From Gemmatimonadaceae bacterium (GTDB lineage Bacteria; Gemmatimonadota; Gemmatimonadetes; Gemmatimonadales; Gemmatimonadaceae), in NCBI GenBank assembly GCA_020853635.1, contig JADYYN010000131.1, positions 1-40,853 of the forward strand: a stretch of 40,853 bases of DNA. Direction: 5' to 3'. Below the pieces are notes generated by a model. That model had not been told where the DNA came from. It saw only the letters and a program-made list of their open reading frames with translations, and did no database searches. Positions 583 to 39,880 of the stretch are shown in pieces (the first letter of the stretch is position 1; every line of letters starts with the position of its first letter). Position numbers and translations under genes: made by a program.

Positions 583-617
583 GTGAGTGGTGAGTCGGGA
601 GTTTTGAGTAACGGCGG
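583..617 (+). repeat. Purine-rich heptamer array, left arm (acnA / lipid kinase gap)
   Basis: Five consecutive 7-bp units of consensus GTGAGTN decay from left to right: GTGAGTG, GTGAGTC, GGGAGTT, TTGAGTA, ACGGCGG. It starts 30 bp after the aconitase stop. The first 13 bases and the 9 bases GTAACGGCG at 608-616 recur with identical 12-nt spacing at 22644-22677. Confidence 0.75.
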
Positions 618-656
618 GGAGGGGACTCACTTGGGGTCGCTCTCCCCGTAGTTTTT
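615..656 (+). terminator. Candidate intrinsic terminator after acnA
   Basis: CGGGGAG (615-621) pairs perfectly with CTCCCCG (642-648) across a 20-nt loop and is followed by TAG and five T's (652-656). The long loop makes it weaker than the other terminators here. It overlaps the end of the heptamer array. Confidence 0.45.
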
Positions 657-670
657 CCTGGTCGCAGTGC

Positions 671-707
671 CTCACCTCTCCCATCTCCCCTCTCCCCTCT
701 TGAGTCT
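671..707 (+). repeat. Pyrimidine-rich heptamer array, right arm, before the lipid kinase
   Basis: In phase from 673 the units are CACCTCT, CCCATCT, CCCCTCT, CCCCTCT, then the degenerate TGAGTCT. The same consensus (CCCATCT) occurs before queE (13051-13085) and before the DUF4287 gene (39845-39879). The array runs into the probable TTG start codon at 700. Confidence 0.75.
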
Positions 708-1584
708 CAAGCTTCGCGTTCTGTTCAATCCGGCCTCCGGCCGCGGCCGCGGCGCGCGCGTGATCGGGGGGATACGGGAGGCGTTCGCGCGGTATGGGTT
801 CACCGACGTGCGGGGGACGGAGCGCGCTGGCGATGAAGCCCGACTGGTGCGTGAGGCGCTCGACGATGGGATCGACACCATCGTGGTGGCGGGTGGTGAT
901 GGCACCTGGTCCAAGTGCGCGGTGCCGCTCGCGCGTGCGGGGTCGCCGGCGCGGATGGCGTTGTTGGCGGCGGGCACGGGCAACGACTTCGCCAAGAACC
1001 TCGGGCTCGACCCGCGCGATCCCGCGGCGCTTGCCAAACGTCTGGCGGACGGCGACGTACGCGAGCGGCGCGTCGACATGGGACGCATCGACGACCATTG
1101 GTTCCTGAACGTCGCTGGCTTCGGGTTCGACGCGGCCGTGCTTGAAGCGACGCAACGCAGCACGCTGTTGCGCGGACCGGCACTCTACGTCGGCGCGGCG
1201 CTGCGAGAGATCTTCGCCTACGATGGCATCGAAGTGCGCATCGACGGCGCGGCTGCGCGGCGCTATCTGCTCACGGTGTTCTCCAACGGCGAATACTTCG
1301 GTGGCACGTTCCGCATCGCGCCCGATGCGCGGATCGACGACGCGCAGCTCGATGCGATCCTCATCGACGACGTCGCGAAGCTGCAGCGCCCGCTGCTTCT
1401 CGCGCGTGCGATCTCAGGGTCCCACGTGCGTGGACCGCATTGCACGCATCGTCGGTTCGCCGACATGCGATTGGAGTTCGCGGCGGCACCGCTCTGCGAG
1501 ATCGACGGCGAACTCGTGCGCACCGCGAGCGCGCAGGTGCAGGTCGCCAGCGTGCCTGCAGCGCTCCGCGTGGTCGATCGCTGA
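700..1584 (+). CDS. Diacylglycerol kinase / YegS-like lipid kinase
   Basis: A 294-residue ATP-dependent lipid kinase of the DAGK catalytic family (diacylglycerol, sphingosine or phosphatidylglycerol as substrate; the sequence does not decide which). The N terminus reads MSLKLRVLFNPASGRGRG if TTG at 700 is used, matching the usual family start. The nucleotide loop GGDGTW lies at residues 65-70, followed by GTGNDFAKNLGL, and a C-terminal beta domain ends in EIDGE. A GTG at 667 is also in frame but would add 11 residues encoded by the heptamer array, which I reject as spurious. There is no Shine-Dalgarno sequence; the pyrimidine array occupies that place. It probably acts at the inner face of the cytoplasmic membrane. 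Confidence 0.88.
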   Translation: MSLKLRVLFNPASGRGRGARVIGGIREAFARYGFTDVRGTERAGDEARLVREALDDGIDTIVVAGGDGTWSKCAVPLARAGSPARMALLAAGTGNDFAKNLGLDPRDPAALAKRLADGDVRERRVDMGRIDDHWFLNVAGFGFDAAVLEATQRSTLLRGPALYVGAALREIFAYDGIEVRIDGAAARRYLLTVFSNGEYFGGTFRIAPDARIDDAQLDAILIDDVAKLQRPLLLARAISGSHVRGPHCTHRRFADMRLEFAAAPLCEIDGELVRTASAQVQVASVPAALRVVDR

Positions 1585-1662
1585 GTCTCACGCCGCGAAA
1601 GGGGAACCTTCTTCCTGTTCGGCAGGTTCAATCAGTCTATCTCCAACCGCGCAGGCGCCGCC

Positions 1663-2235
1663 ATGAATACCGACCTCGTCAACTCTCGCAGCATCCGCGC
1701 GATCATCGCCGTCGCCGCACTGGCCACGGCGACCACTTCGCTCGACGCGCAAGCCGCGCCGACGGTCGGCAGCATCGCGCCGGACTTCTCGCTGCCCGCC
1801 GCGACCAAGGACGGCATCCTGCCGCAGAACGTCTCGCTCGCCGGTCTGCGCGGGCGCACGGTCGTCATCGCCTTCTTCCCCAAGGCCCGCACGCCGGGCT
1901 GCACGCATCAGATGGAGGCGTACCGCGACCAGTTCGCGACGCTCTTCAATGAAGGGAAGGACGTCACCGTGCTCGCCGTGAGCACCGACGACCCCGAGAC
2001 GCTCCGCGAGTGGGCCGCCGAGCAGAAGTTCCCGGTCACGTTCGTCAGCGACGAGCGCGGCGTGCTCGCCAAGCCGTACGATGTGAAGTATCCTGCTATC
2101 AACATGTATCGCCGCGTTCTCTTCGTGGTGGCTCCCGACGGCAAGGTCACGCACGTGATGCGGCCGTTCAAGGAACTCTCCGCGGACGCCTACACCGAAC
2201 TCGCCACGGCCGTGAAGAAGGCCGGCGCGAAGTAA
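1663..2235 (+). CDS. Secreted peroxiredoxin (AhpC/TSA, BCP-like), first of a tandem pair
   Basis: A 190-residue thiol peroxidase, predicted to reduce hydroperoxides outside the cytoplasm. Residues 1-31 form a signal peptide ending in LDAQA. The thioredoxin-fold core follows (VGSIAPDFSLP at 35-45), with the peroxidatic cysteine C80 in FFPKARTPGCT. In classical BCP a resolving Cys lies five residues further on; here that position is Met and there is no other Cys, so it should be a 1-Cys enzyme needing an external reductant. The next gene, 25 bp downstream, is a clear paralogue. The ATG is not preceded by a Shine-Dalgarno site. A GGAACCTT at 1603-1610 resembles an ECF-sigma -35 box, but no convincing -10 follows. 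Confidence 0.9.
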   Translation: MNTDLVNSRSIRAIIAVAALATATTSLDAQAAPTVGSIAPDFSLPAATKDGILPQNVSLAGLRGRTVVIAFFPKARTPGCTHQMEAYRDQFATLFNEGKDVTVLAVSTDDPETLREWAAEQKFPVTFVSDERGVLAKPYDVKYPAINMYRRVLFVVAPDGKVTHVMRPFKELSADAYTELATAVKKAGAK

Positions 2236-2260
2236 GCCCACTCGTACTCGGATCCTCCAC

Positions 2261-2866
2261 ATGACCCGCTCCGTCCGCTCGCTGCTCGCACGCACCCTCG
2301 CGCTCGCCGTCGCCGCGGTCGCGCTGCACACCTCGTCCGCGCGCGCGCAGCAGCCCGCCACGCCGGCGCCCGACAACGGCCCAAAGGTCGGCGACATGGC
2401 CCCCGACTTCACGCTGCCCGGCGCGACCAAGGACGGCGTGACCGCCGAGCCGATCAAGCTCTCCAGCCTCAAGGGCCAGACGGTCGTCATCGCGTTCTTC
2501 CCGCGCGTGCGCACCAGCGGCTGCACCGCGCAGATGAACTCGTATCGCGATCAGTACGCCACGCTGTTCAACGGCGGCAAGGGTGTGACGGTGCTCGCCG
2601 TCTCCACCGACAGCGCCTCGCAGCAGGCGAGCTGGGCGACCGAAGCGAACTTCCCCGTCACCTTCGTCAGCGACGTCGCCGGCACGCTCGGTGCGCCGTA
2701 CGACGTGATGGTGGAGCGCAACGGCCAGAAGTTCATGCGCCGCGTGCTCTTCGTCGTCGGGCCGGACGGTCGCATCAAGCATGTGATGCGCCCCTTCCGT
2801 GAGCTCGCTGCCGATTCGTACACGGAGCTGAAGGCCGCCGTCGAGAAGGCGTCCGCGGGCAAGTGA
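2261..2866 (+). CDS. Secreted peroxiredoxin (AhpC/TSA, BCP-like), second of the tandem pair
   Basis: A 201-residue paralogue of the preceding peroxiredoxin, sharing VIAFFP, the FVSD block, RRVLFVV and HVMRPF...ELAADSYTEL. A signal peptide ends near SSARAQ (residue 30), followed by a short Pro/Ala linker. The peroxidatic cysteine is C88 in VRTSGCT; Ser replaces the Pro of the usual PGCT motif, and the resolving-Cys position is again Met. Being duplicated yet diverged around the active site suggests different peroxide or partner preference (inference). Its stop codon overlaps the ATG of the glycerate kinase gene by one base (TGATG), so the two are probably co-translated. Confidence 0.9.
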   Translation: MTRSVRSLLARTLALAVAAVALHTSSARAQQPATPAPDNGPKVGDMAPDFTLPGATKDGVTAEPIKLSSLKGQTVVIAFFPRVRTSGCTAQMNSYRDQYATLFNGGKGVTVLAVSTDSASQQASWATEANFPVTFVSDVAGTLGAPYDVMVERNGQKFMRRVLFVVGPDGRIKHVMRPFRELAADSYTELKAAVEKASAGK

Positions 2867-4209: not shown

Positions 4210-4227
4210 GGGGGCGAAATTGCACGC

Positions 4228-12285: not shown

Positions 12286-12986
12286 GCGGCGTGACCGGAG
12301 TGACGCTCGCGCCTGTTCCCGAAGGGACGCCCGACGTGGTGCTGCTGAGCGGCGGACTCGACTCCACGACGGTGCTGGCCCTCGCGACCAAGGCGGGCTA
12401 CGCCGTGAACGCGCTCACGTTCCGCTACGGCCAGCGGCACGACATCGAGATCACGCGCGCCCAGCAGATCGCCGCGCGCTGGAAGGTGGCGCGTCACGTG
12501 GTCTGCGATATCGACCTGCGGTTGTTCGGCGGCTCGGCGCTCACGGCGGAGATCGACGTGCCCAAGGACCGCGACGCCGCGGCCATGGGCGAGGGCATCC
12601 CGATCACGTACGTGCCCGCGCGCAACACGATCTTCCTCTCGTTCGCCCTCGCGTGGGCCGAGGTGCTGGGCGCCAACGATCTGTTGATCGGCGTGAACGC
12701 ATTGGACTACAGCGGCTATCCCGACTGCCGTCCGGAGTACATCGCGGCATACGAGACCATGGCGAACCTCGCGACGCGCGCCGGCGTGGAAGGCACGGCG
12801 CGCACGAGAATCCTCACGCCGCTCATCGCGATGACCAAGGCACAGATCATCCGCACGGGATTGGCGCTGGGGGTGAACTACAGCGAGACGATCTCGTGTT
12901 ATGATCCCGCAGCCGACGGCACGCCCTGCGAGCACTGTGATGCGTGTGTGTTGCGGGCCCGGGGTTTTTCGGAACTGCAGATGTGA
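12282..12986 (+). CDS. queC: 7-cyano-7-deazaguanine synthase QueC
   Basis: A 234-residue ATP-dependent enzyme making preQ0 from 7-carboxy-7-deazaguanine and ammonia, in queuosine biosynthesis. The PP-loop [10 protein letters not shown] is near the N terminus (about residues 22-31), FRYGQRH and [15 protein letters not shown] are family blocks, and a zinc site is formed by C206, C216, C219 and C222. GTG at 12282 overlaps the chemoreceptor stop (GTGA), so queC is translated as the last member of a signalling operon, an unexpected position. The TGA (12984-12986) lies on the first bases of a heptamer repeat array. queE follows about 110 bp downstream; queD and queF are not in the window. Confidence 0.96.
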
Positions 12987-13008
12987 GAGGGGAGATGGGA
13001 GATGTGGG
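12985..13008 (+). repeat. Purine-rich heptamer array, left arm, after queC
   Basis: Units GAGAGGG, GAGATGG, GAGATGT and a partial GGG. The array begins inside the queC stop codon. Bases 12993-13006 (AGATGGGAGATGTG) are the exact reverse complement of 13072-13085, giving a perfect 14-bp stem around a 65-nt loop. Inside that loop CCGGG (13016-13020) can pair with CCCGG (13028-13032). Confidence 0.8.
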
Positions 13009-13050
13009 TTGTTCGCCGGGCAGAGTTCCCGGTCCACGTCGACCATGCGT

Positions 13051-13092
13051 CACCTCTCCCCTCTCCCATCTCACATCTCCCATCTGCGTCTC
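13051..13092 (+). repeat. Pyrimidine-rich heptamer array, right arm, before queE
   Basis: In-phase units CACCTCT, CCCCTCT, CCCATCT, CACATCT, CCCATCT, then GCGTCTC. The last good unit ends exactly 8 nt before the queE ATG, the same spacing seen before the DUF4287 gene. An 18-bp stretch (13063-13080) is identical to 39843-39860. No Shine-Dalgarno sequence is present. Confidence 0.8.
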
Positions 13093-13093
13093 C

Positions 13094-13723
13094 ATGTATT
13101 CAGTCAAGGAAATCTTCTACACACTCCAGGGTGAGGGCGCCCACGCGGGCCGCCCCGCCGTGTTCTGCCGGTTCGCGGGCTGTAACCTGTGGACGGGGCG
13201 CGAGGCCGATCGCGCGACGGCGGTGTGTTCGTTCTGCGACACCGACTTTGTGGGGATCGGACCGGACGGCGGGAAGTTCGCCACGGCCGAGGCGCTCGCC
13301 GACGCCGTGGCGGCGCACTGGCCGGCTTCGGCCGGAGGTACCCCCTACGTGGTCTGCACCGGTGGCGAACCCCTCCTGCAGCTCGATGCGGCGGCCATCG
13401 CCGCCCTGCACGCGCGGGGCTTCGAGGTGGCGGTGGAGACCAACGGCACCCAGCCCCTCCCCGAGGGACTCGACTGGGTCTGTGTGAGCCCCAAGGCGAA
13501 TGCGCCCGTGGTGGTCGCGGGCGGAGACGAGCTCAAGCTCGTGTACCCACAGGCGCTGGCGCGGCCGGAGCGATTCGAAGACCTGGACTTCCGCCACTGG
13601 TACCTGCAGCCGATGGACGGGCCGGATCTGGCGGCCAACACCGCCGCCGCCATTGCCTACGTCCTCGCCCATCCGCGCTGGCGGCTCTCGGTGCAGACCC
13701 ACAAGGTGATCGGGGTCCGGTAG
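13094..13723 (+). CDS. queE: 7-carboxy-7-deazaguanine synthase QueE (radical SAM)
   Basis: A 209-residue radical-SAM enzyme turning 6-carboxy-tetrahydropterin into 7-carboxy-7-deazaguanine, the step before QueC. The N terminus MYSVKEIFYTLQGEGAHAGR is the family signature and fixes the start, although the frame is open about 150 bp upstream through the repeat arrays. The cluster motif is C30-X14-C45-X2-C48, the E. coli-type spacing rather than CX3CX2C. CTGGEPLLQ, VETNGTQPLP and VSPKA follow. Length fits the short QueE type. Its distance from queC, filled by a potential long hairpin, means its expression could be uncoupled from the upstream operon. Confidence 0.95.
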   Translation: MYSVKEIFYTLQGEGAHAGRPAVFCRFAGCNLWTGREADRATAVCSFCDTDFVGIGPDGGKFATAEALADAVAAHWPASAGGTPYVVCTGGEPLLQLDAAAIAALHARGFEVAVETNGTQPLPEGLDWVCVSPKANAPVVVAGGDELKLVYPQALARPERFEDLDFRHWYLQPMDGPDLAANTAAAIAYVLAHPRWRLSVQTHKVIGVR

Positions 13724-13831
13724 CGAGGCGTCCGTCCCCGCTTGTCGCCCCGGACCGCGCGCCCGGGTTTGTATCGCACCCCGGTACCCGCGCAACCCCC
13801 CGCCCCCCTCGGCGCCTCTATTGATTGAGTA

Positions 13832-13860
13832 TTGACGTTTGGCCCGGCGGGCGGGAACTT
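13832..13860 (+). promoter_or_regulatory. Weak candidate promoter for the TonB receptor
   Basis: The 236-bp gap before the receptor gene holds TTGACG at 13832-13837, a good -35 hexamer, with GAACTT 17 bp further on as a poor -10. About 100 nt of leader would separate it from the start codon. Otherwise the gap shows only a short stem, CCCGG (13748-13752) with CCGGG (13763-13767) and three T's, a possible weak terminator after queE. Confidence 0.25.
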
Positions 13861-13959
13861 AGGGACGGTCCAAAGACCTGTGACTCAGCTCACTCCAGGG
13901 ACCCGTGGCCTCGTGCGGCTTCGGTCCTCACACCCCATGCACTTCGAGGTGCGATTCGT

Positions 13960-16827
13960 ATGCGAATCCGTTCCGTCAGCAGGGTACTCGCGATGCTCGG
14001 CTTCTTCGCCGTCGCTGGTACCGCCGACGCCCAATCCGGGTCCATCGCCGGCCGCGTGACGCAGGCCGAGGGCGGCGCCGCCATCGGCGGTGCGCAGATC
14101 CAGGTCTACTCCGGCGGGACGCGCGTCGCCGCGGGCCAGTCCGCGGATGACGGCAACTACCGTGTCGCGAACGTCCCCGCGGGCACGTACGCGGTGCTCG
14201 TCACCCGCATCGGCTACAGCGCCAAGCGCACCGAAGGCGTGGTCGTCACCTCGGGCGGCACCGCGACGGTGAACGTCGGCCTCGCCGAGATCGCCACGCA
14301 GCTCAATCAGGTCGTCACCACCGGCACGCGCGGTGCCGAGCCCGAGAAGATCCTCGACTCGCCCAACTCGATCTCCGTGGTGTCCGCGGATCGTATCGCC
14401 GAGCGTCCCTCGGTGACGATCACGGACCACCTGAAGTCGACGCCGGGCCTCTCGATCTCCAACGGCGGCATCGTGCAGGCGAACATCGTCTCGCGCGGCT
14501 TCAACAACGCCTTCTCCACGTCGATGCTGATGCTGCAGGACTACCGCTTCGCCGGTGTCCCGTCGCTCCGCGTCAACGTGCCGTTCCTGTTCACCGGCAC
14601 CGGTGAGGACGTCGATCGCATCGAAGTGCTGCAGGGCCCGGCCTCGGCCCTCTACGGCCCGAACTCCGGCGCCGGCGTGCTGCACGTGATCACCAAGTCG
14701 CCGTTCCAGTCGAAGGGCACCACGCTGACCCTCGACGGTGGCGAGCGCTCCATGGCCCGCCTCGCGGGCCGTCACGCCGGCACCTTCGGCAACGAGAAGT
14801 TCGGCTACAAGATCTCCGGTGAGTACTTCTCCGCGAAGGACTGGGAATACACCGACCTGAACGAAGTCGACCTCGGTCCCAGCGCGAACCCGGTGGCGAA
14901 CGCCATCTATAAGACGTATCCGGCCGGCGATCCGCGCGTGCCGGCGTCGCGTCAGGGCCAGGCGAAGTCGCGCGACTTCGACCTCCTCAAGTACTCCGGC
15001 GAAGCCCGCCTCGACTACCGCCCGAACGAGGACACCGAAGCCATCACGACCTTCGGGTACACGCAGGCCGCCAGCGCGCTCGAGATCACGACGACCTTCG
15101 GCGCCGCGCAGGTGAAGAACTGGAGCTACACCAACCTCCAGCAGCGCTTCCGCCACAAGAAGTTCTTCGCGCAGGTGTTCTACAATGCGTCCGATGCGGG
15201 GAACGACAACGCCACCGACGACGCCGGCACGTTCTACCGCCGCTCCGGCATCCCGGTCGTCGACCAGTCGACCGTGCTCGTCGCGCAGGCGCAGCAGGGC
15301 TTCAACTACAAGAGCACCAAGTACACGGCCGGCGTGGACTACATCGCCACGACGCCGAAGACGGCCGGCACCATCATGGGCCGCAACGAGGACGATGACA
15401 ACATCAACGAGATGGGCGCGTACCTGCAGCTCACGCACCCGCTCAGCGATCGCGTCGACTTCACCGGCGCCGTTCGCGGCGACATGAACTCGCGCATCGA
15501 AGGCACGCAGTTCTCGCCGCGCGCCGCCTTCATCTTCAAGGCGACGCCGACCCAGAACTTCCGCCTCACGTTCAACCGCGCCTTCAACTCCCCGGCGTCC
15601 TTCTCGCTCTTCCTCGACCAGTGGTCGGGCCAGCGCGTGAATCTCGGACCGGCGCTCGGCAACACCGACGTGCAGATCTTCGGCAACCCGGCCAAGGAAG
15701 GCTGGCGCTACGACCGCGGCTGCGACGCCGCCATCAACGGCGGCCTCTGCATGCGTTCGCCGTTCACCGGCCCGAACCCGGTCGCAGCGACCGGCTCGGC
15801 GATGGTTCCGGGCATCATGGCGACCAACGGTGCTGCCCTCGCGGGCGCGGCCGGTGCCGCCTTCGGCCTCTCGCCGGCGCAGGTCACCGCGATCCGTAAC
15901 GCCCTGGCCGGCCTCGCGCCGACCGACGCGCAGGTGCGCGGCGTGCTGCGTAACCTCGGTGCCCCGGGCACCCCGGTCGTGCCGTGGACCAATCCCACGG
16001 ACCTCGGCGCCCTCGGTGCGAACTTCTCCAACACCTGGGAGATCGGCTACAAGGGGGTCTTCAACAACAACCTCCGCGTGTCCGCTGACTTCTGGTACCA
16101 GATTCGCCCGTCGGATCCGACCACGCAGGTCGTGAACCTCGACGACGCGGTCTTCCTCGATCCGACCACGCTCGGCGCCTACCTCGGCGCGCAGATCGGT
16201 CCGGTGCTCGGCGCCAACGGCGTTCCGGGTGCTGCGATCCCGACCGTGATCACGGGCTGGGTCACCCAGCTCGCCCAGCTCCCCGGCGGCCTGCTCAGCT
16301 TCGACAACCCGCTCTGGGACAAGAACTACCTGCTCTTCACGTACCAGAACTCCACCGGTCAGGTCGACGTCCGCGGCATCGATCTCGCGGCCGACTACCT
16401 CATCAACAACACGTGGACGGTCGGAGCGACCTACTCCAACCTCAACCGCAACGTCTTCGAGAAGGCGCCTGGCGTGACCGCGGCCAACCCGCTCACCGCC
16501 AACGCGGCGAAGCACCGCGCCTCGATCACGCTGCGCATGGATGACCAGGAGCGCGGCATGACCGCCGAACTCCGCGGCCGCTACACCGACGCGTTCCCGG
16601 TGAACTCGGGCGTGTACAACAGCTACAACGTCGGCACGCCGAACCGCTACGAGCAGGTTCCGGTGAACGCCTTCCTCGACGCCGGCTTCTCGTATCGCCT
16701 CCCGGTGGCGGCGAACGTCCGCTGGTCGCTCAATGCCCAGAACATCTTCGACAACCGCGTGCCGACGTTCATCGGCGTGCCGGAAGTGGGCCGCTTCATC
16801 ACCACGCGTATCCAGTACAACTTCTGA
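13960..16827 (+). CDS. TonB-dependent receptor with N-terminal carboxypeptidase-regulatory-like domain
   Basis: A 955-residue outer-membrane receptor. MRIRSVSRVLAMLGFFAV with cleavage after GTADA is the signal peptide, which is why I start at 13960 and not at the in-frame ATG 45 codons upstream. Next come a beta-sandwich CarboxypepD_reg-like domain (about 25-105: GSIAGRVTQAEGGAAIGGAQ), the plug (about 115-225: PNSISVVSADRI, GEDVDRIEVLQGPASALYGP) and the 22-strand barrel ending in the usual aromatic residue (RIQYNF). A loop with an unusually Ala/Gly/Pro-rich stretch sits near residues 600-700 and has a Cys pair (RGCD...GGLCM). No SusD-like partner lies next to it. The substrate is unknown. A strong terminator closes the gene. 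Confidence 0.93.
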   Translation: MRIRSVSRVLAMLGFFAVAGTADAQSGSIAGRVTQAEGGAAIGGAQIQVYSGGTRVAAGQSADDGNYRVANVPAGTYAVLVTRIGYSAKRTEGVVVTSGGTATVNVGLAEIATQLNQVVTTGTRGAEPEKILDSPNSISVVSADRIAERPSVTITDHLKSTPGLSISNGGIVQANIVSRGFNNAFSTSMLMLQDYRFAGVPSLRVNVPFLFTGTGEDVDRIEVLQGPASALYGPNSGAGVLHVITKSPFQSKGTTLTLDGGERSMARLAGRHAGTFGNEKFGYKISGEYFSAKDWEYTDLNEVDLGPSANPVANAIYKTYPAGDPRVPASRQGQAKSRDFDLLKYSGEARLDYRPNEDTEAITTFGYTQAASALEITTTFGAAQVKNWSYTNLQQRFRHKKFFAQVFYNASDAGNDNATDDAGTFYRRSGIPVVDQSTVLVAQAQQGFNYKSTKYTAGVDYIATTPKTAGTIMGRNEDDDNINEMGAYLQLTHPLSDRVDFTGAVRGDMNSRIEGTQFSPRAAFIFKATPTQNFRLTFNRAFNSPASFSLFLDQWSGQRVNLGPALGNTDVQIFGNPAKEGWRYDRGCDAAINGGLCMRSPFTGPNPVAATGSAMVPGIMATNGAALAGAAGAAFGLSPAQVTAIRNALAGLAPTDAQVRGVLRNLGAPGTPVVPWTNPTDLGALGANFSNTWEIGYKGVFNNNLRVSADFWYQIRPSDPTTQVVNLDDAVFLDPTTLGAYLGAQIGPVLGANGVPGAAIPTVITGWVTQLAQLPGGLLSFDNPLWDKNYLLFTYQNSTGQVDVRGIDLAADYLINNTWTVGATYSNLNRNVFEKAPGVTAANPLTANAAKHRASITLRMDDQERGMTAELRGRYTDAFPVNSGVYNSYNVGTPNRYEQVPVNAFLDAGFSYRLPVAANVRWSLNAQNIFDNRVPTFIGVPEVGRFITTRIQYNF

Positions 16828-16848
16828 TACCGGGGTCGCTGGGCAGGT

Positions 16849-16887
16849 CGAAGCGGGGTGGGCCACTTGGCCCACCCCGCTTCGTTT
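16849..16887 (+). terminator. Intrinsic terminator after the TonB receptor
   Basis: A perfect 16-bp stem (16849-16864 with 16869-16884), loop ACTT, followed by TTT. It begins 22 bp after the receptor stop codon. Its tail runs into the TATGTT box just before the GDPD start. Confidence 0.9.
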
Positions 16888-16892
16888 ATGTT
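16887..16892 (+). promoter_or_regulatory. TANNNT box 6 nt before the GDPD start (leaderless candidate)
   Basis: TATGTT lies exactly 6 nt upstream of GTG 16899. No Shine-Dalgarno site is present, and no -35 can be named because the terminator stem occupies that position. Confidence 0.3.
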
Positions 16893-16898
16893 CCAGTG

Positions 16899-21452: not shown

Positions 21453-22661
21453 GTGCACGAGATGAACCGCCCGGCGCTGCGCGCCATCGCGCTCGCGACC
21501 TTCCTGACGCTGGTCCCCATCACGTTGCTCGTGCCGGGACTCACCGAGCTGGTGATGGAGACGCACGGCGGGACGCGCTTCCAATCGCATCTCTTCGTCT
21601 CGCTGAATCAACTGGCCGGCATCGTGGCGGTGCCGTTCGCCATCCGTTTCCATCGTCGCTATCCCGACACGCGTCGCTGGATCGTCGCGTTGCTCGCCGT
21701 CGATGCGGTCGCCTTCCTCGGCATGCGCGCGGCGGATTCGCTCGGCATGTTGTTCTTCTGGCGCGCGCTGGACGGCATGGCGCACCTGCCTGCGGTGACG
21801 TTCCTCATGATCGCGGCCAACCGCGCGGGCGGGCAGCGACGCGGGGCGTCGATGGGTGTGGTCGCATCCGCGCTGATGATCGGTGTGGGCGTGGGTGCTC
21901 CGGTGGGTGGCATCCTCATCGACCGTGACCCGATGCTCGTGTACTCGGTGGGCGCGGTGTTGCTCGGCATCGCGGCGCTCTCGGCGCTGGCGGTGCAGCC
22001 CACGGCGATGCCGCTCGCCTCACCGGCGCCCGGCTCCCGGTATCGCTGGGATCGCTCACGCGCCGCGGCCTACATGCCGCTCGCGTACGGGTTCGCCGAT
22101 CGCTTCCTCATCGGCGTGTTCGTCTCGACGTTCACGTTGTTCCTCACCGAGGTGCACGGTGTGAGCGCGGCCTCGCGCGGCATGTTGATGTCGCTGTTCC
22201 TGCTGCCGTTCGCATTGCTGAGCTGGCCCGCCGGACGACTCACCGACCGGGTGGGCTGGTACGGTCCCATCGTTGCGGCCAACATCCTGTTCGGCGTGGT
22301 CTATGCGACGTATGGCGTGTTGCCGTTCGAGTGGCTCCCCGTGGCGATGGTGCTCTCGGGCGCGTTGAGCGCGCTGATGTTCGCGCCGAGCCTGGTGCTG
22401 GTGAGCGAGTTCGCGCGCCGCGGATTCGGCGAAGGGTTGTTCGGCTCATTCCAGATCGCCGGCTCGTTCGGCTTCCTCACCGGCCCGCTCGTGGGCGGTG
22501 TGCTGGTGGAAGTCCTGCGCCGCAGTGATGGCACGCCGCAGTGGGCGGCGATCTTCGCGGTGGTGGGGGCGGGGCTGGTGGCGCTTGGGCTCTTTAGCTG
22601 GCGGGTGCTTGGCGCGTTGGTGAGGGAATGGCGGAAGGGCGCTGTGAGTGGTGAGTTGTGA
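21453..22661 (+). CDS. Major facilitator superfamily transporter
   Basis: 402 residues, about 12 membrane helices. The inter-domain loop carries AGRLTDRVGWYGPIVAANILFG-type MFS sequence, and RALDGMAHLPAVTFLMIAAN fits TM4-5 of drug/sugar carriers. Substrate unknown. GTG at 21453 or ATG at 21462 could start it. The last six codons (AVSGEL and the TGA at 22659-22661) lie inside a heptamer repeat array, so the C-terminal residues were supplied by the repeat. Confidence 0.84.
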   Translation: MHEMNRPALRAIALATFLTLVPITLLVPGLTELVMETHGGTRFQSHLFVSLNQLAGIVAVPFAIRFHRRYPDTRRWIVALLAVDAVAFLGMRAADSLGMLFFWRALDGMAHLPAVTFLMIAANRAGGQRRGASMGVVASALMIGVGVGAPVGGILIDRDPMLVYSVGAVLLGIAALSALAVQPTAMPLASPAPGSRYRWDRSRAAAYMPLAYGFADRFLIGVFVSTFTLFLTEVHGVSAASRGMLMSLFLLPFALLSWPAGRLTDRVGWYGPIVAANILFGVVYATYGVLPFEWLPVAMVLSGALSALMFAPSLVLVSEFARRGFGEGLFGSFQIAGSFGFLTGPLVGGVLVEVLRRSDGTPQWAAIFAVVGAGLVALGLFSWRVLGALVREWRKGAVSGEL

Positions 22662-22677
22662 GCTATAGGTAACGGCG
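22644..22677 (+). repeat. Purine-rich heptamer array, left arm, at the end of the MFS gene
   Basis: Units GTGAGTG, GTGAGTT, GTGAGCT, ATAGGTA, then ACGGCG. It matches 583-616 at the same phase and spacing. Bases 22648-22662 are the exact reverse complement of 22719-22733, a 15-bp stem. Within the loop TGCGGG (22679-22684) pairs with CCCGCA (22690-22695). The array contains the stop codon of the MFS gene. Confidence 0.8.
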
Positions 22678-22704
22678 ATGCGGGAGCCCCCCGCACCGCC
22701 GCTA

Positions 22705-22732
22705 CTCACCACTCACGACTCACAACTCACCA
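22705..22732 (+). repeat. Pyrimidine-rich heptamer array, right arm
   Basis: Four perfect-phase units CTCACCA, CTCACGA, CTCACAA, CTCACCA. With the left arm it forms a hairpin between two convergent genes and may work as a bidirectional terminator. CGCCGTTAC (22772-22780), the reverse complement of the GTAACGGCG tail of the left arm, carries the stop codon of the minus-strand peptidase gene. Confidence 0.8.
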
Positions 22733-22776
22733 CGCCGTTGGCAGTTGAAGCCGTGAGTAGTTGAAGCCATTCGCCG

Positions 22777-23835
22777 TTACCGACGTTCCGGCTTCCCCCC
22801 CGCCTTCCACTCCGGCTTCGCCCCATCCGCCACCACTCTCACCGCCTTCGCCGTCGCGTTGATCACCGCGGCGAAATGCGGGAAGTCCATCGTCTCCACT
22901 TCGTCGTTCACGCCGTGGTAGTCGCTGTGACCACCGAAGCTCGAGATGGTGTGTGCCGGGATGCCCTGCAGCGCGAACGGGTAGTTGTCGGAGCGCGAGA
23001 AGAAGTTCTGCGCGGGGCGCGGGTCCTGGATCACCGCGACACCGGCGGCGGCGAGCATCTCGCCCATCGTCGAGCGCTCGTAGCCGGTGAGCCAGCCTTT
23101 GCCTGGGCCGCCGGCGAGTGAGTCGGGACGGCCGATCATCTCGATCTGCACATCGGCGATCACCTGCGCGAGCGGACGCACCGGATTGCGGATGAAGTGG
23201 TTGGTGCCGGTCATCCCGTTCTCCTCGCCCGTGAACGCGACGAAGATCACCGAACGCTTGGGCGCACCCTTCTCCTTCAACTGGCGCGCCGTCTCGAGCA
23301 TCGCGATCACACCCGACGCATCGTCGTCCGCGCCGTTGAAGATGCTGTCGCCGTCCACCGCCCGCGCCGAGTTCATGCCGAGGTGGTCGTAGTGCGCCCC
23401 GACGATGACGTACTCGTCGCGGAGCACCGGGTCGCTGCCACGCAGGATGCCGACGACGTTCACCGCCTCACGACGCTGCGCGGCGGGGATGGTGTCGTAC
23501 ATCTCCTTGGACGCCGCGAGCATGGGCCGCGACGGTCCACCCGGCGTGCGCGGCGCACCGGCGTAGATCGGCACCGTCTGGAAGAACTGCTGATCGCCGG
23601 CGGGCTCCAAGCCAATGCGCTGCATCTGCGCCGCGATCACCCGCGCCGCGCGCATCGCACCGGGTGTGCCGGTCAGGCGGCCTTCGAGTGAGTCGTGCGC
23701 GATCATCGACAGCAGACGACGTGCGTCGTCGGGCGTGGTCGCGCGCTGCGCGCGCACGTCAGCAGCACCGACGCCGAGGGCCACGAGGACGAGTGCGGCC
23801 GCAGCGAAGGTCCGAGAGAGGGGAACGGAGGACAT
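22777..23835 (-). CDS. Secreted M28-family zinc aminopeptidase
   Basis: 352 residues; signal peptide to about residue 29 (ADVRAQ), so periplasmic or surface-located. The two-zinc site of family M28 is complete by motif: H148 in GAHYDHLG, D170 in NGADDDASG, the general base pair E204-E205 in FTGEENG, Asp in IEMIGRPD and His in FGGHSDYHGVNDE. I start at the ATG giving MSSVPLSRTF; a further in-frame start 17 codons upstream would put extra residues before the signal peptide. The role is probably release of N-terminal residues from peptides. It converges on an MFS gene, separated by the heptamer hairpin. Confidence 0.93.
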   Translation of the reverse strand: MSSVPLSRTFAAAALVLVALGVGAADVRAQRATTPDDARRLLSMIAHDSLEGRLTGTPGAMRAARVIAAQMQRIGLEPAGDQQFFQTVPIYAGAPRTPGGPSRPMLAASKEMYDTIPAAQRREAVNVVGILRGSDPVLRDEYVIVGAHYDHLGMNSARAVDGDSIFNGADDDASGVIAMLETARQLKEKGAPKRSVIFVAFTGEENGMTGTNHFIRNPVRPLAQVIADVQIEMIGRPDSLAGGPGKGWLTGYERSTMGEMLAAAGVAVIQDPRPAQNFFSRSDNYPFALQGIPAHTISSFGGHSDYHGVNDEVETMDFPHFAAVINATAKAVRVVADGAKPEWKAGGKPERR

Positions 23836-24579: not shown

Positions 24580-24605
24580 GTCTCGCCGCCCACCCCTGCG
24601 CGCGG

Positions 24606-24611: not shown

Positions 24612-24618
24612 CCCTGCT

Positions 24619-25509: not shown

Positions 25510-25515
25510 TTTCGC

Positions 25516-27024: not shown

Positions 27025-27047
27025 TCTCCACCCCACTCCGTCCCCTC

Positions 27048-28935: not shown

Positions 28936-29015
28936 TGCAGATGGTGGATGGTGGATGGTGGATGGTGGAACGGAGTGCTTATCCACCATCTTCCCTCCGC
29001 CATCCGCCATCTGCC
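28936..29015. repeat. Paired heptamer arrays between the Gfo-2 and cutC genes
   Basis: On the + strand: GGTGGAT three times plus GGTGGAA (28943-28970), a 10-nt spacer, then ATCCACC, ATCTTCC, CTCCGCC, ATCCGCC, ATCTGCC (28981-29015). GATGGTGGA (28961-28969) pairs perfectly with 28982-28990, and CAGATGGTGGATGG (28938-28951) with 29000-29013 at 13 of 14 positions. The arrays fill the whole gap between the Gfo-2 stop and the cutC start. Confidence 0.82.
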
Positions 29016-29019
29016 CTTT

Positions 29020-30369
29020 TCACAGACTCCAGCCCGCGCGGTAGGTCGGATTTACCCACTCGCTCGGCGGCGTCACGTTCTTGATGACACCCGTGTCCGG
29101 ATCCATCTCGAGCGTGCGGCCCATGCGCACCGCGAGGCACCCGATGAGGATCATCTCCGTCATCGGACCCGCGTAGCCGGCGAAGTTGCTGCCCGGCTGC
29201 GTGCCGTTCTTCGCCGCGGAGAGCCACTCCTTGTACACGCCTTCCGTGCGCGGGTACTTCACGGGCACCGGCTTCGCCTTGATCTCGGCGTTCAGCGTTT
29301 CGTTGAGCAGGCGCGGATTCTCGGCGTACGTGCCGGCGAGGATCATGCCCTTGTCACCGATCCAGAGCTGACCGCCCGTGGGATCATGCGGCCACGCCTG
29401 ATCCTCGGGGTAGCCCTCAGGGCGCGGCGGGACCAGCGAGCCGTCGCGCCAGTTGAGCGTCACGCCGGGACGGTTGCCCATCGCCGGGAACTCGTACGTG
29501 ATGCGCTGCATGGCCGGCGCGGTCTCGGCGAACAGCACCGTGCTCTCCGGCGTGATGCGCGACGGATACTTGAGCCCGAACGTCCAGTACGCGGCATCCA
29601 TGATGTGGCAGGCCATGTCGCCCATCGCGCCGGTGCCGAAGTCCCACCAGCCGCGCCAATTGAACGGCGCATACCGCGGATGATACGGCCGCTCCTCGGC
29701 GGGGCCGAGCCAGAGGTTCCAGTCGAGCGTCGGCGGCACGTTGTGCGCGTCGCTGGGACGATTGATCGCCTGCGGCCAGATGGGGCGGTTGGTCCAGTAC
29801 TCCACGCGGCTCACCGTGCCGATGAGGCCGGCCTCGACCCACTCGCGAATGAGGCGGATGCCTTCGAGTGCGTGGCCCTGGTTGCCCATCTGCGTCGCCT
29901 GCTTGGGCCGCTTGGCCGCTTCGGCCTTGAGCGCGCGCACTTCACCGATGGTGCGGGCGAGCGGCTTCTGGCAGTACACGTGCTTGCCCATCTTGAGCGC
30001 CATCATCGCGGCGGCCGCGTGCGAATGGTCGGGGGTCGACACCGTCACGGCATCGATGTTGTTGCGCTCCTTCTCGAGCATCTCGCGATAGTCCTTGTAG
30101 CGACGCGCCTTGGGATTCGCGCGGAAGGAGCCCTCGGCGGCCTTCCAGTCCACGTCGCAGAGCGCGACGATCTCTTCGTGCGCGACGCCGCGCACATCGG
30201 TCGCGCCCATGCCACCCACGCCGATGCAGGCGATGCGCATCTTCTGCGACTGTTGCTGCTGCGGCGCCGGCTCGGAGAGAGCATGCAGCGGCTGCGGCAT
30301 TGCGGCCAAGGCTCCCGCGGCAGCGAGCCCACCGACGAATGAGCGACGATCGAGTTCTTTGTCTGACAT
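29020..30369 (-). CDS. Gfo/Idh/MocA-family oxidoreductase with Tat signal
   Basis: 449 residues starting MSDKELDRRSFVGGLAAAGA, a twin-arginine signal (RRSF), so the cofactor-loaded enzyme is exported. Rossmann motif GVGGMG, then CQKPLAR in place of EKP (Gln for Glu), and the catalytic Asp/His D251 and H255 in MGDMACH. WDFGTGAMGDMACHIMDAAYW is the hallmark of the large Planctomycetes/Bacteroidota-type subgroup found with DUF1080 genes. In that system such enzymes oxidise the C3 hydroxyl of glycosides. ATG at 30369 lies 8 bp after the stop of the carrier gene; a TTG at 30381 is less likely. Confidence 0.93.
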   Translation of the reverse strand: MSDKELDRRSFVGGLAAAGALAAMPQPLHALSEPAPQQQQSQKMRIACIGVGGMGATDVRGVAHEEIVALCDVDWKAAEGSFRANPKARRYKDYREMLEKERNNIDAVTVSTPDHSHAAAAMMALKMGKHVYCQKPLARTIGEVRALKAEAAKRPKQATQMGNQGHALEGIRLIREWVEAGLIGTVSRVEYWTNRPIWPQAINRPSDAHNVPPTLDWNLWLGPAEERPYHPRYAPFNWRGWWDFGTGAMGDMACHIMDAAYWTFGLKYPSRITPESTVLFAETAPAMQRITYEFPAMGNRPGVTLNWRDGSLVPPRPEGYPEDQAWPHDPTGGQLWIGDKGMILAGTYAENPRLLNETLNAEIKAKPVPVKYPRTEGVYKEWLSAAKNGTQPGSNFAGYAGPMTEMILIGCLAVRMGRTLEMDPDTGVIKNVTPPSEWVNPTYRAGWSL

Positions 30370-30377
30370 GCGAATCC

Positions 30378-32314: not shown

Positions 32315-32494
32315 CGCGTCCTCAGAGCTACAGGGGGAGTGTGTCGAGCGGCGGGAACGTATCGAAATACGACCCCACCGGGAAGACGTTGAGCAGGGCC
32401 GTGCGGACTCCCCTCACCCTGCGTGGGCGCCACGCTGACTGCCGAGCCCGCGCCCCGGTGCCATCTTGCAGGTAGTGATCCCCCTGGAGGCTCC

Positions 32495-33067: not shown

Positions 33068-33089
33068 TCACCCGGAGTCCGCATCTTCC

Positions 33090-33125
33090 CCGCGCCCGGT
33101 GTCCGCACCGGGCGCGGTTTTGTTG
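33090..33125 (+). terminator. Intrinsic terminator after the DUF4136 lipoprotein
   Basis: A perfect 12-bp stem (33090-33101 with 33106-33117), loop TCCG, followed by TTTTGTTGT. Confidence 0.92.
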
Positions 33126-33156
33126 TCCGGGCCGCCCCCCACACCTCAGAACGTCC

Positions 33157-35379: not shown

Positions 35380-35388
35380 GCGGCGCGG

Positions 35389-37143: not shown

Positions 37144-37178
37144 GGACACGACCGGCGTTGGGGAGACCGCATATGCTG

Positions 37179-37209
37179 ATTCTACCCTTGTCCCAGCGGA
37201 TGTGGTCAA
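37179..37209 (-). promoter_or_regulatory. Promoter of the carboxypeptidase-regulatory-domain gene
   Basis: On the minus strand TTGACC (37209-37204) and TAGAAT (37184-37179) are 19 bp apart. The -10 is 5 of 6 to consensus. The leader to GTG 37143 would be about 30 nt. Confidence 0.45.
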
Positions 37210-37218
37210 CGCTGGGAC
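37190..37218. promoter_or_regulatory. Operator-like palindrome GTCCCAGCG-N11-CGCTGGGAC
   Basis: Two perfect 9-bp arms (37190-37198, 37210-37218) flank 11 bp that contain the -35 box of the minus-strand promoter. A further half-site TGGGACG occurs at 37238-37244, 25 bp from the first. A dimeric repressor could act here; the regulator is not in the window. Confidence 0.5.
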
Positions 37219-37321
37219 GAAAGGAGTTGCGCGGTGTTGGGACGTCATCCGACAGCCATTCGCGGGTTCGGCCGGATACCCTAGACAATTTGTCGGAATT
37301 GCAATAACCTCAATCGTCATA

Positions 37322-37340
37322 AATGATACCCATTCTCATC
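37322..37340 (+). promoter_or_regulatory. Fur-box-like site before the PepSY gene
   Basis: TGATACCCATTCTCA (37324-37338) matches the 7-1-7 Fur consensus TGATAATNATTATCA at 11 of 14 defined positions, in an AT-rich pocket 30 nt before the ATG. PepSY membrane proteins are often iron-regulated, which supports it. Confidence 0.5.
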
Positions 37341-37368
37341 TAAAGTTAACCTCGTACTGCTAAACAAG

Positions 37369-38526
37369 ATGCGAACTGTCGGCAGCGTAGTCCGCAGTGC
37401 CTTCTTCTGGGTCCACCTCGCCGTTGGCGTCGCCGCGAGCGCACTCATCCTCCTCATGTCCGTCACCGGTGTGCTCCTTGGATTCGAACGCCAATCCATC
37501 GCCGCCATCGACGGCACGGCCGCCGTCGCGCCGGCCCCAGGACTCCCGCGACTCCCGATCGACTCCGTGCTCGCTCGGCAGGCCATCGACCGCGCTGATG
37601 TCGCCAGTGTCGTCATGCGCGCCGAGCCCGATCGGCCGCTGACCATCCGATTCCGCGAACGCGATCGCTCGGCGCTGCTCGTCGACCCATGGCGAGGCAC
37701 CACCGTCGAGGCCCCGCCACCGGGGAAGGGTCAGGCCTTCTTCTCGGCGCTGCGTCGCTGGCATCGTTGGGTGGGCGCGACCGGCAGTGAGTGGCGCACG
37801 CGATTCCGCGCGGCGACCGGTGCGGCCAATCTCGCGTTCCTGTTCCTCGTGCTCTCGGGCCTGTACCTCTGGTGGCCGAGCCAGTGGACGAGGCAGCGGC
37901 TCGTCGCCACCACCGTGCCGCGCCTGAGCGCCACGGGGAAAGCTCGCGACTTCAACTGGCACCACAGCTTCGGATTCCTCGCCGCGGTCCCGCTCGCACT
38001 CGTCGTCGCGTCGGGCGTGTTCATCTCGTACCAGTGGCCGGGGCGACTGCTGGACCGCTTCGTCGGCTCGCCGGAGGAACGCGCCGAGTCAGCACCACCG
38101 TCGCCCGAACTCGCGCCACGCCACGACGACGCGCCCCTCGACCGCAGCGTCGCACACGCGATCGCCGCACACCCGGACTGGCGACAACTCACCCTCACGC
38201 TCCCGGCCGACCGCGACTCCGTGCTACGGATCGCCGTGGCCGAAGGAAATACGTATCGCCCCGACCAACGCTACACGCTGACCTTCGCACGCACGAGCGG
38301 CGCGGTACTCGCCACGAGCGGCTACGCCGACCTCAGCCTGAGCCGACGGATCCGCGCCTGGGTGCGCTTCGGCCACACCGGCGAAGTGTTCGGCGTCACC
38401 GGGCAACTCGTCGCGACGCTCGTCACCGCCGTCGGCGCGCTGCTCGTGTGGACGGGCCTGGCACTCAGCTGGCGGCGCTGGCGTCAGTGGCGCGGCCGCC
38501 GTCGCGTCCTATCTTCTCCTGCGTGA
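37369..38526 (+). CDS. PepSY-associated membrane protein, probably iron-regulated
   Basis: 385 residues of the PepSY_TM family, thought to act as inner-membrane reductases in siderophore-iron uptake. TM1 at about 12-38 with H16 (FFWVHLAVG), then RRWHRWVG, a second TM region (NLAFLFLVLSGLYLWWP), NWHHSFGF before TM3, and RFGHTGEVFGVTGQ leading into the last TM. The conserved histidines fit haem binding. A periplasmic PepSY-like stretch (PDWRQLTLTLPADRDSVL) lies near residues 265-285. Regulation by Fur is suggested by the upstream site. The gene downstream encodes a secreted plug-like protein; a 7-bp hairpin (38527-38533 with 38541-38547) lies between. Confidence 0.88.
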   Translation: MRTVGSVVRSAFFWVHLAVGVAASALILLMSVTGVLLGFERQSIAAIDGTAAVAPAPGLPRLPIDSVLARQAIDRADVASVVMRAEPDRPLTIRFRERDRSALLVDPWRGTTVEAPPPGKGQAFFSALRRWHRWVGATGSEWRTRFRAATGAANLAFLFLVLSGLYLWWPSQWTRQRLVATTVPRLSATGKARDFNWHHSFGFLAAVPLALVVASGVFISYQWPGRLLDRFVGSPEERAESAPPSPELAPRHDDAPLDRSVAHAIAAHPDWRQLTLTLPADRDSVLRIAVAEGNTYRPDQRYTLTFARTSGAVLATSGYADLSLSRRIRAWVRFGHTGEVFGVTGQLVATLVTAVGALLVWTGLALSWRRWRQWRGRRRVLSSPA

Positions 38527-38565
38527 CCCGCGGCGAGCGACCGCGGGCTGTGCGCAGGAGCGGAG

Positions 38566-38994
38566 ATGCGGCGGTTCATCGGTCGGCTCATGTTGGCAGT
38601 GCTCGTTCTCGCAACGTTCGCCGTGAGCAGCGACGCGCAGGAGGCGAAGAAGAAGCGCGGCGACCGCAATCGGCTCCTGCAGGAGGAGATCGTCGAAGCG
38701 GGTGCCGCCATCGTCACCGCCCGCGACGCGATCCGCATGCTGCGGCCGCAGTGGCTCAATCCGCCCATGGGCCGCATGGCCTCATCAAACGTCGGCGGCG
38801 CCGGCGGCGGTCAGCAGAGCTTGATCCTCTACATCGACGACCAGCGCCAACCCGATCTCGAGATCCTCACGCAGGTGAAATCGGCCGACATCGTCGAGAT
38901 GCGCTACCTCGATCAGAATCGCGCCGTGCAGTACCGCGGCCCTGGACATGAAGCGGGCGTGATCGAGATCAAGACGCATCGCTCCAAACCCTAG
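38566..38994 (+). CDS. Small secreted protein resembling a TonB-receptor plug domain
   Basis: 142 residues. Signal peptide to about residue 25 (AVSSDAQ), a Lys/Arg-rich segment, then a compact domain whose end (LILYIDDQRQPDLEIL, KSADIVEMRYLD, GHEAGVIEIKTH) copies the layout of the TonB plug signature (…IDGV…, DIESIEVLKG, GVILITTK). There is no barrel, so it cannot be a receptor. AGGAG lies 5 nt before the ATG. Function unknown; possibly a periplasmic or cell-surface partner of TonB systems. Its TAG overlaps the GTG of the next gene by one base. Confidence 0.7.
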   Translation: MRRFIGRLMLAVLVLATFAVSSDAQEAKKKRGDRNRLLQEEIVEAGAAIVTARDAIRMLRPQWLNPPMGRMASSNVGGAGGGQQSLILYIDDQRQPDLEILTQVKSADIVEMRYLDQNRAVQYRGPGHEAGVIEIKTHRSKP

Positions 38995-39809
38995 TGACCG
39001 ACGCTCCGGATCCGGCGTCGCAGGCGCCGACGCTGCGCGGCACGCTCCGCCCGCTCTACCGCGCCCTCCTCGGCGAGGGGATGCGCGCGCGACTGCGTCC
39101 GCTCACATATCCCGCCGACACCGCGTTCCGTGCCGCACTCTGGCGCGGGGCACAGGGCGCGGTCGCCGCAGGCCCCTTCACCGGACTCAAGCTCGCGCCG
39201 CGTCCGTTCCTCCCGCACCTCCTCGGGACGTACGAGCGCGAGCTGCATCCCACCATCGACGCGCTCTGCACGCGGAAGTGGAAACGCGTCATCAACATCG
39301 GTGGTGGCAACGGCTTCTACATCGCCGGACTAGGCCGTCGCATCCCGGGCGCCGAACTCATCGTGTTCGAACTCACCGCCGAGGCCCGTGCGGTGATCGC
39401 CGCGACCATGACGCGCAACGGCCTGCAGGACCGCATGACCATCCTCGGCGCGGCGGATCAGAGCAACTTCGCCGCCGCACTCGGTGATGGCGAGGACACA
39501 CTCGTGGTGATCGACGTCGAAGGGCTGGAGATCGAACTCACCGATCTCACGCGGATCCCCGGGCTCCGTCGCGCGACGCTGCTCGTGGAGACCCACGACG
39601 TGATCCGTCCCGGCTGTCGCGACGCGGTGGTCGCACACCTCGGCGCCACACACGCCGTGAACGCGATCCCCACTCAGGCGCGCACGCTGGCGGACTTCCC
39701 GCGTGAGTTGTCGCCCTGGTTGATGCGACTCGCCCCGAGTCGCTGTGTAGAGGCCGTGCAGGAGTGGCGCGGCGGGCCGCAGGAGTGGTTGCTGCTCGAA
39801 CCGCGGTAA
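38994..39809 (+). CDS. Methyltransferase-like protein (FkbM/SAM-binding fold)
   Basis: 271 residues. A Rossmann-type nucleotide site VINIGGGNGFYIAGLG begins near residue 98, followed by the acidic strand end AELIVFELTAEARAV, the second strand MTILGAADQSNF, and TLVVIDVEGLEIEL, which matches the conserved Asp-Val-Glu-Gly of FkbM methyltransferases. The first 90 residues are Arg/Leu-rich and unassigned. Substrate unknown. The GTG start overlaps the previous stop (TAGTG), so it is coupled to the plug-like gene. Confidence 0.72.
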   Translation: MTDAPDPASQAPTLRGTLRPLYRALLGEGMRARLRPLTYPADTAFRAALWRGAQGAVAAGPFTGLKLAPRPFLPHLLGTYERELHPTIDALCTRKWKRVINIGGGNGFYIAGLGRRIPGAELIVFELTAEARAVIAATMTRNGLQDRMTILGAADQSNFAAALGDGEDTLVVIDVEGLEIELTDLTRIPGLRRATLLVETHDVIRPGCRDAVVAHLGATHAVNAIPTQARTLADFPRELSPWLMRLAPSRCVEAVQEWRGGPQEWLLLEPR

Positions 39810-39842
39810 GTCGACATGAGTGGCGCGGCTGTGAGCGCCCTA

Positions 39843-39880
39843 CTCCCATCTCACATCTCCAATCTCCCATCTCCCATCTC
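39843..39880 (+). repeat. Pyrimidine-rich heptamer array before the DUF4287 gene
   Basis: Units CCCATCT, CACATCT, CCAATCT, CCCATCT, CCCATCT end 8 nt before ATG 39888. Bases 39843-39860 are identical to 13063-13080. No matching purine arm is seen upstream. Confidence 0.8.

Follow-up and report, generated by a model that had tools for sequence, protein, structure and literature searches.

Paired, inverted arrays of 7-bp units lie at gene 3' ends in a 40,853-nucleotide contig of a Gemmatimonadaceae bacterium (JADYYN010000131.1; hereafter the window, meaning the whole stretch analyzed), and elements of this kind recur in many bacterial phyla. All five gene boundaries at which an earlier reading of the sequence (the original prediction) had placed 7-bp arrays were found to carry them, using Tandem Repeats Finder and a lag scan of the window. 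At four of them (sites 1 to 4), a G-rich arm is followed by an inverted C-rich arm. The observation is real and not due to chance; it is wider than was assumed at the outset, and it is not without precedent. Our analyses establish the position of the elements, the order of their arms, their fold potential, the enrichment of terminator-like cores and their fast turnover. Their likeliest role, which we infer from sequence and hold tentatively, would be that of bidirectional 3'-end hairpins bracing transcription terminators.

The window is contig C131 of a draft genome, G000 (metagenome-assembled, 4.17 Mb, 295 contigs, 83.7% complete); G001 and so on denote the other genomes compared. Stretches of the window with at least 20 matches in 28 occur only at lag 7 and its harmonic 14, with none at lags 4-6 or 8-13. 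At a 17/21 criterion, we found six lag-7 arrays, against a mean of 0.065 and a maximum of 2 in 200 third-order Markov simulations, and all six lie outside our own coding calls. In 206 kb of G000 (contigs taken by number), 8/8 arrays are intergenic, though 93% of bases are called coding, as are 24/28 arrays in 760 kb of the congener G016; our gene caller, a codon model whose stops are reliable and whose starts are less so, penalized arrays and may slightly favor these intergenic counts. The site 3 element gave 43 matching rows in G000, which correspond to 30 other places, the palindrome matching both strands. A structured family is thus spread genome-wide over gene boundaries, as had been proposed, and the intergenic bias and further copies remove both objections that the original prediction had raised against itself: equal periodicity in coding or random sequence, and a lack of further copies.

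A three-unit pattern, CTCMCNW, is present in 51 of 148 genomes of the family. In G000, it has 108 and 100 matches and its reversed control has 8 and 8, with overlapping matches included. The reversed control exceeds the pattern in some genomes (64 and 100 versus 32 and 23 in G021; 122 and 111 versus 0 in G036), so it cannot serve as a clean null, and these genomes contain other units. Among relatives, the strict paired GTGAGTN pattern is rare, being carried by 2 of 61 genomes, G000 included. An array of GATGCGG units was also seen in G016 (L089, 868-916), and the word GATGCGGG recurs in several element cores of G000 and G016.

To look beyond the family, we scanned one genome per species (257 billion bases) for the pattern GTGAGTN GTGAGT, 10-40 bases, ACTCACN ACTCAC. 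Paired GTGAGTN arrays were found in at least 118 stretches, where chance would give about 0.03 matches (uniform bases). Among 80 of the at least 118, phyla assigned from record names include Bacteroidota, Pseudomonadota, Planctomycetota, Acidobacteriota, Cyanobacteriota, Chloroflexota, Chlamydiota, Patescibacteria and Gemmatimonadota. Carriers comprise isolates and metagenome-assembled genomes; isolates among the matches listed include Mucilaginibacter lappiensis, Niastella yeongjuensis, Sediminibacterium goheungense and Mesorhizobium species. The 118 named loci were selected for the GTGAGTN unit. With this unit masked, lag 7 still yields 54 other arrays, lag 8 yields 18 and lag 14 yields 38, and none of the remaining lags between 4 and 15 exceeds 6. 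The units of these arrays vary, among them ATGAGTT, GATGAAT, GTTATTG and GTGTTTG. Inverted pairs also occur in these loci besides the chosen elements, and some of them overlap or have an arm in common. Lag 7 accounts for 19 and lag 8 for 15, every one of them G-first; lag 14 gives 16, of which 15 are G-first, and lags 10 and 15 give 2 each. A period of strictly 7 was rejected, since 8-bp arrays (CACAGAGR, CACGAAGR, ATTTGAAA) adopt the same layout and a few inverted pairs exist at lags 9, 10 and 15. Paired GTGAGTN arrays in many phyla are new here, as are the numerous further units, for the most part of period 7 or 8.

Between neighboring lag-7 or lag-8 arrays at most 160 bp apart, five data sets analyzed at strict settings gave 37 G-then-C pairs, no C-then-G pair and 4 same-strand pairs. 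The convergent, G-rich-first arrangement known from Xanthomonas is thus found at 4 of 5 window sites and in 37/37 opposed neighbors. C-first pairs appear under relaxed settings (2/26 in G016, 2/6 in G012), in 1/13 lag-8 pairs of G016 and in 1/16 lag-14 pairs of the named loci; the pattern list holds one such neighbor pair (G016 C2:530406/530435). In the same genomes, hairpins that follow a stop codon without any array lean weakly towards G-first (39:23 and 32:17). Complementary units occupy both arms in 30 of the 37 opposed pairs and are lacking in 7, and arms within one element match better than arms of other elements (p=2e-8). GTCA-type units were found in both arms of 18 of 120 elements, in the left arm only of 14, in the right arm only of 24 and in neither arm of 64.

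The folding predicted for sites 1 to 4 was borne out, with RNA fold energies of -52.6, -55, -54.9 and -50.8 kcal/mol and z-scores of -2.5, -4.2, -9.6 and -7.8, respectively. Site 1 is the weakest of the pairs, and its two arms consist partly of different units. The strict phase attributed to the arrays holds within each arm, yet one base of the unit is free and units are mixed. The 120 GTGAGTN elements of the named loci have a median fold energy of -39 kcal/mol, and every one of them scores z below -2 relative to mononucleotide shuffles. G-quadruplexes were rejected as a common function, since units without GGG have the same layout; on the + strand, the G arms of sites 1, 3 and 4 contain at most one GGG run and that of site 2 contains three, so that no G arm of the window reaches the four runs of Xanthomonas-type G-quadruplex arrays.

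The elements are anchored at stop codons. The 120 elements of the 118 named loci divide into 68 in tandem gaps, 29 in convergent gaps, 10 in divergent gaps, 3 in a called open reading frame (ORF) and 10 at an edge. In tandem gaps, the median distance is 3 nt from the stop to the element and 34.5 nt from the element to the next start; 45 elements begin within 10 nt of the stop and 13 end within 10 nt of the start, the stop being nearer in 54 cases and the start in 14. Both stops lie within 10 nt in 16 of the 29 convergent cases. Compared to background, convergent gaps are over-represented (29/107 versus 62/459, p=0.001) and divergent gaps under-represented (10/107 versus 96/459, p=0.006). Convergent gaps are also enriched in a Gemmatimonadota set of 46 pairs of periods 7 and 8 obtained at relaxed settings (16/45 versus 76/563, p=0.0003, with a background that includes contigs chosen for arrays).

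Cores between the arms often resemble terminators in the Gemmatimonadota. For cores of at least 30 nt, 18 of 32 contain a hairpin followed by a U-rich tail when both strands are considered, where 3.6 are expected from shuffles; array-free control gaps of G016 contain one in 15 of 100 cases. This count comes from folding; a search for perfect stems, which found hairpin plus U-tail in 4 cores out of 35 (0.1 expected), was dropped because it missed obvious imperfect stems. Cores start a median of 45 nt after the stop in the Gemmatimonadota set, where 3 of 56 distances are below 24 nt, and a median of 29 nt in the named loci, where 90 of 126 distances are at least 24 nt.

Both the presence and the unit of the elements change quickly. 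Over 111 orthologous boundaries of G016 and G012, an element is found in G016 only at 7, in G012 only at 3, in both at 1 and in neither at 100, a split that indicates fast turnover; the single shared boundary does not differ significantly from the roughly 0.3 expected by our own arithmetic, so that conserved slots are not supported in this pair. At the queC|queE boundary (queE has a match in 14 of 17 genomes of the genus), four species carry pairs of differing units: GGGAGAT-type in G000, GACGGAA in G008, GACGGAT/GACGGAG in G005, about one base from the G008 unit, and GGATGAA in G015, whose C-rich arm was read by eye. At this same boundary, G003 retains a C-rich remnant, the spacers of G010, G011, G006 and G016 are of other kinds, and G001, G009, G012, G004 and G013 have next to none. 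Ahead of the lipid kinase gene, G002 and G012 have pairs of other units around a hairpin and a T-run. At the convergent boundary 19555/19634, a plain terminator-like hairpin in G000 and G003 is, by eye, flanked by octamer arms in G012 and G005. The aminopeptidase 3' end carries heptamers in G000 and nested octamer layers in G015. In the latter genome, the 315-bp convergent gap L305-L306, orthologous to window 22661-22777, displays by eye several layers of different short repeats, inverted and nested about a single core; the layers look as if they had been added successively.

The individual sites, all given on the + strand, illustrate these features. At site 1, the G-rich arm (583-610; units GTGAGTG, GTGAGTC, GGGAGTT and TTGAGTA) lies about 30 nt past the stop of an ORF ending at 552 according to the sequence and ORF list. 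Its terminator-like core (611-669, z -3.15) has the hairpin and U-tract of an intrinsic terminator, with a stem-loop at 614-649 and a T-run (TTTTT) at 652-656; the terminator scan reports 632-648 with tail TAGTTTTTCC. The C-rich arm (670-703) reaches the TTG start of a lipid-kinase-like gene (700-1584 in our gene call; family matches under curated cut-offs). At site 2, the G-rich arm (12979-13012) overlaps the TGA stop of queC (12984-12986), whose product scores over the TIGR00364 cut-off. A core with a short hairpin in its fold follows (13013-13048), then a C-rich arm of TCTCCCM-like units (13049-13087), 6 nt ahead of the ATG at 13094 of a gene called queE from its place and sequence. At site 3, the G-rich arm (22644-22664; GTGAGTG, GTGAGTT, GTGAGCT) overlaps the stop (22659-22661) of a gene with a weak match to the major facilitator superfamily (MFS), the core hairpin spans 22668-22706 (whole-element z -9.62), and the C-rich arm of ACTCACN units (22702-22733) faces a convergent aminopeptidase-like gene ending at 22777 (family matches). 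The core hairpins of sites 2 and 3 have no clear U-tract. Site 4, without a separate core hairpin, consists of an arm that is G-rich on the + strand (28936-28972; 4.3 copies of GATGGTG), upstream of a cutC-like gene on the - strand, and an arm that is C-rich on the + strand and G-rich on the - strand (28981-29017), 2 nt past the stop (29020) of a - strand gene at 29020-30369 (z -7.80). Site 5 is a lone C-rich array of CTCCCAT units (39843-39883) without a clear G-rich partner, 4 nt ahead of an ATG at 39888; together with upstream DNA, it does not fold (z -0.44). The C-rich arms at 39843-39883, 13049-13087 and 670-703 end 4-6 nt before start codons or at them, leaving scant room for a Shine-Dalgarno sequence. 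Rfam gave no match in the window at gathering score.

Two further structures of the window were noted. A terminator-like hairpin at 16828-16895, GCGGGGTGGGCC..GGCCCACCCCGC, recurs by eye in 8 congeners out of the 9 that have the boundary, and our gene call cuts the remaining one; its recurrence contrasts with the fast-changing array hairpins. In the long leader of the gene at 13993-16827, a GTGAC..GTCAC-like inverted repeat (about 13860-13900), possibly a regulator site, can be followed by eye in about 8 of 11 congeners.

How might such elements work? Each is a 3'-end element made up of a G-rich array at or near the stop, a core, often a terminator-like hairpin in the Gemmatimonadota family, and a C-rich array. 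RNA read from either side meets a G-rich arm first. Poor in C, this arm cannot fold on itself, and may serve as a spacer that holds the terminator outside the zone where a ribosome at the stop codon represses termination. Such a zone is documented for the E. coli terminator tR2, which is almost fully repressed near a stop codon and maximally active beyond about 30 bp, according to PMC4824070. On read-through, both arms would pair, capping the mRNA 3' end or separating two genes. Arrays would grow by slippage, and template switching within the hairpin could copy one arm onto its partner; this would explain why both arms of a locus mostly have one unit in common, when loci and species differ.

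The putative terminator role put forward by the original prediction is supported in this lineage as far as core sequences go. Several observations weigh against the proposal. The array-free control gaps of G016 were cut at 70 nt when cores reach about 140 nt, so that part of the core excess may reflect length. The named loci give a weak U-tract signal, with T4 in 13 tandem cores out of 68 versus 7.2 expected and, downstream, 6 versus 7.6. PMC4824070 recommends low-GC spacers with little structure, and the array arms are not low in GC. Stop anchoring is looser in the Gemmatimonadota set (outer edge a median of 11.5 nt from the stop, 24/56 within 10 nt), divergent elements do occur (the 10 of 107 above), and their 5/45 in the Gemmatimonadota set is no significant reduction (p=0.23); site 5 is a single arm directly ahead of a start codon. 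The order of units in the arms pairs only slightly better than the element's own units reshuffled (p=0.04; 54 up, 35 down); with so near-equal a match, selection on exact pairing is not established, and exact complementarity was rejected as proof of RNA selection. Finally, the spacer idea leaves the G-first order unexplained, because a C-rich arm would be equally unstructured.

The main rival, itself somewhat unlikely in our view, is that the arrays are neutral or selfish slippage DNA, doubled to palindromes by template switching and tolerated only past stop codons. The quick turnover of units and presence (7/3/1 of 111 boundaries, the differing queC|queE units) fits it, as does a link between heptamer excess and polymerase footprint proposed in ref. 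33 as cited in PMC4692102. Yet slippage predicts neither the order rule (37 to 0, with 4 same-strand) nor terminator-like cores, nor would it lead one to expect that elements between tandem genes, where space is free on both sides, begin at the stop codon. The G-first rule is explained neither by terminator bracing nor by neutral slippage. An improbable alternative is that of miniature mobile elements, resembling miniature inverted-repeat transposable elements (MITEs) or repetitive extragenic palindromes (REPs) and moved by a transposase in trans. The original prediction of a mobile or expandable family holds for the changeable part, presence differing between congeners, and only weakly for mobility. 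Besides this presence/absence, the GTGAGTN unit in many phyla speaks for mobility, as do the near-identical 26-bp arms GCCACAGAGGCACAGAGACACAGAGG of octamer elements at several loci of G016 contig C1 (L091 6315-6499, which is genome 106315-106499; 109488-109673; 361170-361356; 664812-665001). Within these identical arms, however, the cores are by eye partly alike and partly not, several sharing a terminator and others lacking it; in G012, the octamer arms are CACGAAGR instead. The Y1 transposase family PF01797, the one transposase family searched, was found in none of the 17 genus genomes (11 of them at least 90% complete), compared to 5 of 14 named genomes as a positive control, and REP-type mobilization was rejected on this ground. 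Furthermore, a viral contig collection gave only 13 stretches, and insertion gives no reason to expect elements that begin at the stop codon.

There is an even slimmer chance that the arrays are targets of a protein that reads the repeats in RNA or DNA, or sites related to the ribosome. GGAG/GGTGA units are similar to Shine-Dalgarno sequences, C-rich arms adjoin start codons at sites 1, 2 and 5, GTGAGTN has one free base in seven, and PMC4679880 suggests translational control by TAACTGA arrays before start codons. However, the unit varies among the loci of a genome and, at a given slot, among species, and placement tracks the stop more than the start.

We may also hypothesize, as a doubtful but possible reading, that many phyla share a sequence-blind process building polar palindromes of tandem units, mostly of 7 or 8 bp, at gene 3' ends; the architecture would be inherited and the unit would be a replaceable local dialect. 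If true, an inherited architecture that keeps its period, G-first order and stop-codon place would suggest that a single shared machine generates or selects the elements, for instance the coupling of RNA polymerase and ribosome at stop codons. The rules found here (periods mainly 7 and 8, G-first order, start at the stop, replacement of the unit in a kept slot, and a terminator-like core in one family) turn into a testable question how transcript ends are set.

Heptanucleotide short tandem repeats (STRR), which PMC4692102 mentions, are intergenic heptamer arrays of cyanobacteria. Like them and like the TAACTGA repeats of Beggiatoaceae (PMC4679880), the present elements are intergenic heptamer arrays with a patchy distribution over distant phyla; TAACTGA sets differ in being direct repeats (169 sets, one inverted) located mostly before start codons. 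REPs, tagged GTAG or CGTC, are the nearest analogue in placement: as PMC3733652 describes them, they are palindromic, occur in tandem and convergent gaps mostly downstream of coding regions, and some supply the stop codon. The string GTAG occurs internally in GTGAGTA arrays. Unlike the present elements, REPs are described there without short-period tandem arrays and often with REP-associated tyrosine transposases (RAYTs), for which the PF01797 search of 17 genomes gave no counterpart here. Bidirectional intrinsic terminators share the hairpin and U-tract of the site 1 core and of many congener elements; ordinary ones lack repeat arms, and the G-first lean of array-free 3' hairpins is only 39:23 and 32:17.

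The original prediction knew of no account of paired inverted heptamer arrays in this lineage. This stands for the Gemmatimonadota: no account was found in the literature searched, most subscription papers lying outside the search, and the main text of the mSystems paper PMC13289151 contains no occurrence of 'repeat' or 'heptam'. The layout is, however, described for Xanthomonas, where Rehm et al. (2015; PMC4692102) report 186 and 183 GGGAATC-type arrays in two genomes, with 70 and 75 convergent pairs. These arrays lie close after stop codons with few divergent cases, most Xac repeats are transcribed, their function is left open, and heptamers are said to have been found over-represented in many bacterial genomes in 2007. 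Like the Xanthomonas GGGAATC/GGGANTN and Nostoc GGGGA(C/T)T arrays of that text, the window contains tandem 7-bp units outside coding sequence with some positions free, and there too the G-rich strand lies on the coding strand shortly past stops, divergent gaps are under-represented and pairs are convergent. With layout and placement published for Xanthomonas, the window elements are no new kind. In contrast to the G-quadruplex-forming unit of those arrays, however, GTGAGTN and GATGGTG have no GGG runs, and here many units and an 8-bp period share one layout, cores are often terminator-like, and the unit differs by species at one slot. Further new observations are the G-first order, the stop anchoring with convergent enrichment, the differing units at queC|queE and the terminator-like cores.

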